The notes under the pieces are model-generated. The model was not told the DNA's origin, searched no databases, and worked only from the letters and a program-made list of their open reading frames with translations. This document shows positions 1-822 of a stretch of 35,035 nt of DNA, in pieces (position 1 is the stretch's first letter; the number at the start of each line of letters is the position of its first letter). This DNA is from Gammaproteobacteria bacterium (lineage in GTDB: Bacteria > Pseudomonadota > Gammaproteobacteria > SZUA-229). The stretch lies in NCBI GenBank assembly GCA_013041745.1, contig JABDRN010000035.1, positions 1 through 35,035 on the forward strand. The letters run 5' to 3'. Made by a program: the position numbers and the translations under genes.

Positions 1-298
1 GGCGAGTTACTCTTTTGCTACAGCCCAAAAGAGTAACCAGACTAATTTAGCCGGGAGCAAAATTGAACAGCTGGTTTTTAGCTGGCCCGAAGGGCAAAAA
101 ACAGGACGTTTTTTGTAACAGGCCGCCACGTCAGCTGCGCCCCTGTAAAAGGCACAGGGGTACCCATTGAGGCAATGCTATTATCATGCTGTGCCAGAAC
201 TCGCAAAGAACGCTCAGACAGCTGGCACAGAAAGCCCATGATAATGGTGCTGCCTCAATGGCTTGCTGAGGTGGACTGAAGGTCAAGAGCAAAAACAG
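1..298 (+). repeat. Structured dispersed repeat element, copy 1 (left end may be cut by the window)
   Basis: No credible gene lies here. The stretch is a chain of hairpins. An 11-bp perfect stem pairs 6-16 with 27-37 around loop GCTACAGCCC. An A/T-rich 8-bp stem pairs 95-102 with 108-115. CCCCTGT/ACAGGGG pairs 140-146 with 154-160. A long nested hairpin spans 164-261: outer stem 164-174/251-261, middle stem 181-188/238-245, apical stem CTGTGCCAG/CTGGCACAG at 189-197/222-230, and a 24-nt loop at 198-221. A tail at 262-298 is also shared with the inverted copy at 348-573. Relative to that copy it carries about 75 extra nt (about 41-115). The unit could be a structured RNA, a non-autonomous mobile element, or both. 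I cannot name a family. Confidence 0.75.
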
Positions 299-347
299 TG
301 TCTGCATTTAGTGTTGCGCTACTTCTTTGTTTATTTGTTTCTGGATT

Positions 348-573
348 CTGGTTTTTGTTTTTTTGACTTTCTCTCGCATCAGCCAAGCCATTGTTGTGCT
401 GCCGGTATCATGAGCTTTCTGTGAAAACTGTCTGAGCGTTCTTTGCGAGTTTTTTCACAGCATGATGCCGGCAGCACAGCAATGGGAACCCCGTGCCTTT
501 CACGGGGCGCCAGGCGTAGCGACGGCCTTTTCTGGGTACTCTTTTGGGCTGTTGCAAAAGAGTGCCTTGCCGT
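348..573 (-). repeat. Structured dispersed repeat element, copy 2 (inverted)
   Basis: Read on the minus strand this matches copy 1 hairpin by hairpin in the same order. Stem 535-545/556-566 has loop GCAACAGCCC. CCCCGTG/CACGGGG is at 489-495/501-507. The long hairpin spans 388-485: outer stem 388-412/461-485, apical stem CTGTGAAAA/TTTTCACAG at 419-427/452-460, and the same 24-nt loop at 428-451. Stem sequences differ from copy 1 but remain paired, while the loop is identical. The two copies are separated by about 49 nt (299-347). A short reading frame crosses this copy on the minus strand (722 to 408), but the hairpins explain the sequence better and I do not call it a gene. Confidence 0.75.
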
Positions 574-577
574 AAAA

Positions 578-745
578 GGCGAAACTCACGGGTACAATAT
601 AAGTACCTAGGTAGCGTCAGAAAGAGAAGTATCGAAAACGTGAATGAGTACCTCGCCCGCGGTGCGAGCACCGCAAGGCCAAACAAAAAGAACCCGGTAA
701 ATGCCAAACACCAGGCATTCAAATCAGGCGAAACTCACAGTACAA
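578..745 (+). repeat. Short direct repeat pair flanking a 129-nt spacer
   Basis: GGCGAAACTCAC followed by GTACAA occurs at 578-597 and again at 727-745, with one to two differences between the copies. The spacer contains three small hairpins: GGTAC/GTACC at 591-595/603-607, GCGGTG/CACCGC at 659-664/669-674, and AATGCC/GGCATT at 700-705/714-719. It adjoins the outer end of structured repeat copy 2 and could be its continuation or a remnant of an insertion. I see no gene between here and the end of tilS at 823. Confidence 0.5.
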
Positions 746-822
746 ATCCACATACCTAATCAGCACCAATAAAAGAAAACTAAAAATTGCAACAAGACCT
801 GCCAGACCAGAACAAAACAATA

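Follow-up and report, generated by a model that had tools for sequence, protein, structure and literature searches.

The window, by which we mean the whole stretch of 35,035 nucleotides analysed here, opens with what we interpret, at a probability of roughly 0.55, as a non-autonomous mobile element, the "divergent GA-core hairpin element", recognised as a single-stranded hairpin by a putative trans-acting enzyme. Positions 1-571 are occupied by two multi-hairpin units arranged as a divergent (inverted) pair, with inverted arms at 157-265/384-492 (109 nt, 76% complementary) and at 1-41/531-571 (88% complementary), so that the two multi-hairpin copies in opposite orientation reported in the preliminary description are borne out. 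The z values of the core hairpins (-8.25 for the right and -4.5 for the left) were obtained against dinucleotide shuffles, none of which (0/200) equalled the native sequence. The window is the start of a contig in a 2.97-Mb draft genome and, because this contig begins at window position 1, the left end of the element is cut; on the right side, similarity to same-genome copies shows repeated modules continuing to approximately 797 (Table 1). Other copies are flanked by the same terminal hairpin as that at 6..37, and the type A module is the counterpart of the GTTTCGCC-nnnn-GGCGA that ends the elements of the ilvY-ilvC interval described below.

Table 1. Features of the element copy at the start of the window
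Feature	Position	Strand	Basis or remark
Left terminal hairpin, GTTACTCTTTTG / CAAAAGAGTAAC	6..37	-	12-bp perfect inverted repeat; continues outward, cut by contig start
Left unit, second hairpin, CCCC...GGGG	140..160	-	Folding; helix 4 in pair counts
Left unit, core hairpin, 'CCAG' type	164..261	-	Fold z -4.5; covariation, 50 units
Left core hairpin, stem P1	164-188/237-261	-	
Left core hairpin, 5' bulge GGGCTTTC and P2 CTGTGCCAG/CTGGCACAG	within 164..261	-	
Left conserved core, internal loop TGTCTGA/GAGTT around apical P3	198..221	- (5'-3')	Near-invariant columns; compensatory changes in P3
A/T-rich central spacer with two diverging TTTTGACCTTC-like leaders, one ahead of each unit	262..383	.	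Copy comparison
Right unit, core hairpin, 'AAAA' type	388..485	+	Fold z -8.25; covariation
Right core hairpin, stem P1	388-412/461-485	+	
Right core hairpin, bulge AGCTTT	413-418	+	
Right core hairpin, P2	419-427/452-460	+	
Right conserved core, TGTCTGA (429-435) and GAGTT (447-451) around P3 (436-438/444-446)	428..451	+	Conserved columns, covariation, searches
Right unit, second hairpin, CCCCGTG/CACGGGG	489..507	+	Folding; helix 4
Right terminal hairpin, GGTACTCTTTTG / CAAAAGAGTGCC	535..566	+	Inverted repeat; fold z -4.25
Outer end module type A, GCCGTAAAAGGCGAAACTC	567..590	+	Copy comparison
Further repeated outer modules, with type B hairpin CTCGCCCGCGGTGCGAG...ACCGC at ~652-680 and others	591..797	.	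Similarity to same-genome copies

The compensatory stem changes from which the preliminary description had deduced selection on structure were confirmed when 50 units of the window's genome and its congeners were aligned and 48 pairs scored. Paired cells amounted to 97.0%, against 82.3 ± 0.5% in the shuffled control, changes on both sides occurred at 30 of the 48 pairs, and 327 doubly changed cells were observed versus 90 ± 11 after shuffling, while moving the partner by one to three columns lowered pairing to 35-50%. Selection on structure is therefore established by covariation. The positions that remain invariant over the 50 units are the ATG-G at the top of P1, the 5' bulge, TGT.TGAG and GAGTT, the constant part being an asymmetric internal loop, TGTYTGA opposite GAGTT, within which a tandem G.A pair is likely. 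The invariant 24-nt loop of the preliminary description is indeed identical in the two copies of the window, but across the family it varies and is an internal loop around a covarying apical stem, P3 (GCG...GC). Changes such as GAGCG..GCGAG to GAGTG..ACGAG, together with the variants GCGTACGT...GCGTACGC, identify the centre of the 24 nt as this small stem, which may reach 8 bp, and it was these long-stem variants that led us to abandon the interpretation of the conserved strip as a plain 24-nt loop. A self-complementary P3 is found again in another genus (GCAACGTAGTTGC, GCCACGAAGTGGC, GCCGTTTACGGC and others).

Several other repeats accompany the element. Core hairpins of several genomes, with differing P2 arms, are interrupted directly 3' of GAGTT, always at the identical point, by another repeat, GACGTGCATGGATGCACTAATGTCGC...GCGCAGGAAGCGCAAGAGCGAC (loci L120 at ~175, L058 at ~1750, L063 and L310), and a related stretch lies within the CCCC hairpin of L107; the insert resembles an exchangeable domain or a further mobile hairpin. 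End modules of type A (GCCGTAAAAGGCGAAACTC) and type B (GCCCGCGGTGCGA-AACCGCAAGGCC) are freely combined at both ends of copies (window 567-797; L102-L115), a mixing that looks like end exchange. Hairpins of the REP-like form GTAGGAGCGGA..TCCGCGA, possibly a separate RAYT-type repeat, stand at the outer edges of several copies (L105 893-925, L106 930-960 and L115 535-570), and in the spacer of one copy (L106 ~1275-1450) the simple repeats (CAAAAA)n and (TTTA)n are expanded.

The mismatches tolerated in the stems are strongly asymmetric. Read in the TGTYTGA direction, G.T(U) outnumbers A.C by 110:13 in the window's genus, in a count that left out two pairs with a G.U consensus, and two unit types of the Thermoactinomycetaceae gave G.U:A.C ratios of 89:16 and 62:9 on the same strand. 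This excess means that one strand is under selection, the constraint being confined to the strand that reads TGTYTGA...GAGTT; a double-stranded cruciform would show no such bias and a single strand, RNA or DNA, would, which supports the preliminary description in its naming of RNA or single-stranded DNA. The asymmetry is compatible with RNA as much as with single-stranded DNA, and folding energies fail to separate the two. GNA triloops, with all four bases at N, close 39 of 46 apical GC-N3-GC stems, a count that excludes 14 loci fetched by a GNA-biased pattern and in which the stems share ancestry within genera. The c(GNA)g triloops and tandem GA pairs in a Py-GA-Pu context are unusually stable DNA folds. 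Because the apical triloops are mostly c(GNA)g and the GA pairs lie in a Py-GA-Pu context, DNA is the likelier identity of the recognised strand, an argument that rests on general knowledge and is not decisive.

The search for more copies that had been proposed with the preliminary description was productive, with approximately 20 further copies in the window's own genome, many of them inside contigs, and others in its congeners. Similarity among same-genome copies spans ~720-1000 bp, and the copies thus exceed the interval first described. Recurrence in other gammaproteobacteria, until now an impression, was also verified, and the distribution extends beyond them into Bacillota. A covariance model of the core retrieved multi-copy relatives with unrelated stem arms from other gammaproteobacteria and from Bacillota, while the pattern CTGTYTGAGC-N(2-16)-GCGAGTT was present in 11/299 Pseudomonadota and 18/299 Bacillota genomes, frequently as multiple copies with a maximum of 38, against four matches of the reversed pattern in the 598 genomes; a few single pattern matches may be due to chance or to coding sequence, and weak single matches of the model may be due to chance. 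With model and pattern taken together, the multi-copy core with unrelated P2 arms occurs in at least nine gammaproteobacterial genera and in ~17 Bacillota genomes. The exact core 23-mer is present in several gammaproteobacterial MAGs and in the Thermoactinomycetaceae, which carry the same 23-mer as the left conserved core of the window, and three genomes of this family have 13-49 cores each (up to three mismatches). Plasmid and phage collections gave no match to the window hairpin and the exact core was absent from the viral contigs searched, whereas a relaxed GCGNAGC core was found in 14 IMG/VR contigs (L242-L255), which may be real viruses or host flanks.

The preliminary description had found the element unexplained by a protein-coding gene, a known tRNA/rRNA or an IS end that it recognised. 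Comparison with Rfam gave no credible match: no family was matched at the gathering threshold and only eukaryotic microRNA-type chance matches appeared at relaxed thresholds. Full-text searches with the core and hairpin strings returned no relevant paper, keyword searches of the literature returned only general repeat surveys, and an earlier description outside the searched literature and databases is possible. In the consulted passages of one such survey of stem-loop families (PMC2267715), which covered 40 genomes, nothing like the GA-core element is named.

Among cores up to 600 bp apart, 29 of 31 pairs are divergent and none is convergent, and the two units of a pair usually differ in type: in the window's genus a CCAG unit is paired with an AAAA unit, in the Thermoactinomycetaceae GTGGCAA accompanies GGTGCAA, and in G1019 one P3 is short and the other long. 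The latter, a complete single-contig chromosome, repeats the layout of the window (terminal hairpin, linker, core hairpin, spacer and a mirrored second half), and outer ends of the form GTTTCGCC-nnnn-GGCGA-n-TACTTT are shared by the window's genus and the G306 genus. The copies occupy very different gene neighbourhoods and orientations.

Comparison of insertion sites, which the preliminary description had proposed between strains, was made among congeners and revealed both empty and filled orthologous sites. Elements or cores are found at the parE site in the window's genome and two congeners and at the dcd site in the window's genome only, in both cases upstream of gene starts, while in several congeners the genes flanking these sites lie close together without the element. 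Within the G306 genus, whose genomes have 0-7 cores each, eight species show an ilvY-ilvC interval of ~650-740 bp that contains two cores, and seven show one of ~190-230 bp that contains none; L341 has a short site that agrees with the flanks of the filled L337 site, and L338 retains a remnant of one terminal hairpin. Moreover, L333 carries at this site the same element as L334 and L336 in the opposite orientation (529 bp at 90.4% identity when inverted, against 68.6% when compared directly), and in L110 a single core hairpin is flipped in place. Copies come and go at orthologous sites, and both orientations of the complete element are seen at a single site; ordinary recombination between the inverted arms could produce such inversions. 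An exact target-site duplication was not found, as flank divergence masks the exact junctions, and neither an autonomous copy nor an ORF-bearing element with these ends was seen among the loci examined. The ORFs between widely spaced cores of G447 and G667, each of ~800 aa with a signal-peptide-like N-terminal start and that of G447 near ribosomal protein genes, were considered as a shared transposase and rejected as unrelated genes. The ilvY-ilvC spacers of L333, L337 and L339 contain AAGTGCGGT, the Pasteurellaceae DNA uptake signal, and those of L337 and L339 also its complement; DNA uptake could aid the spread of the element. Overall, the preliminary interpretation is partly supported, its structure, copies and recurrence standing and its hairpin-loop reading not, while mobility and the occurrence of both orientations go beyond it.

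In each element, a central spacer separates two inverted structured units that as a rule differ in type, and terminal hairpins flank them. As the core is common to many gammaproteobacteria and Firmicutes, shared cell machinery probably recognises the single strand. We envisage a widely distributed trans-acting enzyme that would bind the hairpin on the strand running outward to each end, recognising there the apical stem, the 5' bulge and the internal loop with its tandem GA, and that would move or duplicate the element; inversion in situ could simply follow from the long inverted arms and need not involve a dedicated invertase. No partner enzyme was found for the element. More tentatively, at somewhat less than even odds, the copies may form a mobile family, undescribed as far as we found, of Gammaproteobacteria and Bacillota, in which heterodimeric divergent pairs of a tandem-GA hairpin of single-stranded DNA or RNA move and flip through a shared enzyme.

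An explanation that we hold unlikely, though deserving of serious consideration, is that the units are structured RNAs, i.e., two divergently transcribed noncoding RNAs or UTR elements whose k-turn-like GA loop binds a conserved protein, with mobility being secondary. It would account for the tolerance of G.U on one strand, for a conserved 5' bulge and tandem G.A internal loop such as k-turn-like RNAs have, and for the length of the units (~150-200 nt), which have a conserved leader and a conserved tail; however, the lack of an Rfam match, the diversity of gene neighbourhoods and orientations, the strong presence/absence polymorphism and the GNA apical triloops, a speciality of DNA rather than RNA, all count against it, and a common promoter was not evident by eye in the spacer. 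Much less probable is the view that these are bidirectional transcription terminators or mRNA-stabilising hairpins selected at gene ends. Although the copies are intergenic, their terminal hairpins carry T runs, the spacers of G1019 contain terminator-like hairpins and inverted uptake-signal pairs occur at ilvY-ilvC, this last site lies between divergent promoters rather than at gene ends, the parE and dcd copies precede gene starts, and the complexity of the core goes far beyond what termination would require. Chance palindromes or an assembly artefact, which the location of the window copy at a contig end might suggest, are refuted by the numerous copies within contigs and by homologues in many genomes, including that of G1019.

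That the element is an ordinary BIME/REPIN or ERIC palindromic repeat mobilised by a RAYT (Y1/HUH) transposase is improbable in our judgment, even though its copies are intergenic, multi-copy and arranged in inverted two-type pairs as in BIMEs. The corresponding domain, PF01797, is present in 23 of 30 element-bearing genomes, many of which have a single-copy gene, but gave no match in the other seven, which include G097 (~50 cores) and G128 (17). The only neighbour of this kind seen is a Y1/IS200-like transposase gene (L256 597-1079, minus strand) ~550 nt from a core of G447; no core lay within 1.5 kb of the other Y1_Tnp genes examined, and the GTAG/GGAG foot of REP sequences is absent from the conserved columns of the unit. 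A RAYT/Y1 transposase as universal mobiliser was accordingly rejected.

The non-autonomous mobile element that we favour amounts to structured, invertible DNA of hundreds of bases placed between genes in many genomes, whose hosts include Thermoactinomycetaceae and a genus that appears to be Pasteurellaceae. Its invariant core is a handle for finding the binding protein and, through it, a new mobility or nucleic-acid-binding system, and inversion in situ beside promoters, such as those of ilvY-ilvC, could switch expression.

Several known systems resemble the element in part. The 3' overhang hairpins of Streptomyces telomeres have GNA loops, sheared purine pairs and outward-running 3' strands, but here the repeats are internal to the chromosome and no linear replicon is involved. 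Integron attC sites are likewise single-strand hairpins with conserved unpaired features and variable stems, whereas the present units are inverted rather than tandem, no cassette arrays were seen, and the boxes GTTRRRY and RYYYAAC (R''/R') were not seen by eye in the unit consensus. Kink-turn and SECIS-like RNAs share the asymmetric internal loop, with UGA opposite GA and an adjoining short stem; when the unit was compared with the kink-turn, UGA/GA and a covarying NC-stem (P3) were present, the bulge and C-stem were off the standard register, and no k-turn family was matched in Rfam. As in ERIC and MITE sequences, the copies are intergenic, transposase-free, insertion polymorphic and strongly folding, with the MITE traits of inverted terminal hairpins, no coding sequence and empty/filled sites, but each element has two structured units and a core conserved across phyla. 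BIME/REPIN repeats are the nearest kind, being also intergenic, multi-copy, non-autonomous and composed of inverted two-type palindromic pairs with strand-specific hairpin recognition, and they differ in unit size (~30 nt, versus ~100-250 nt here) and in the conserved part, which here is the internal loop TGTYTGA/GAGTT. The element is real, structured, mobile and widespread, and is a composite palindromic repeat that is BIME/REPIN-like in its logic.
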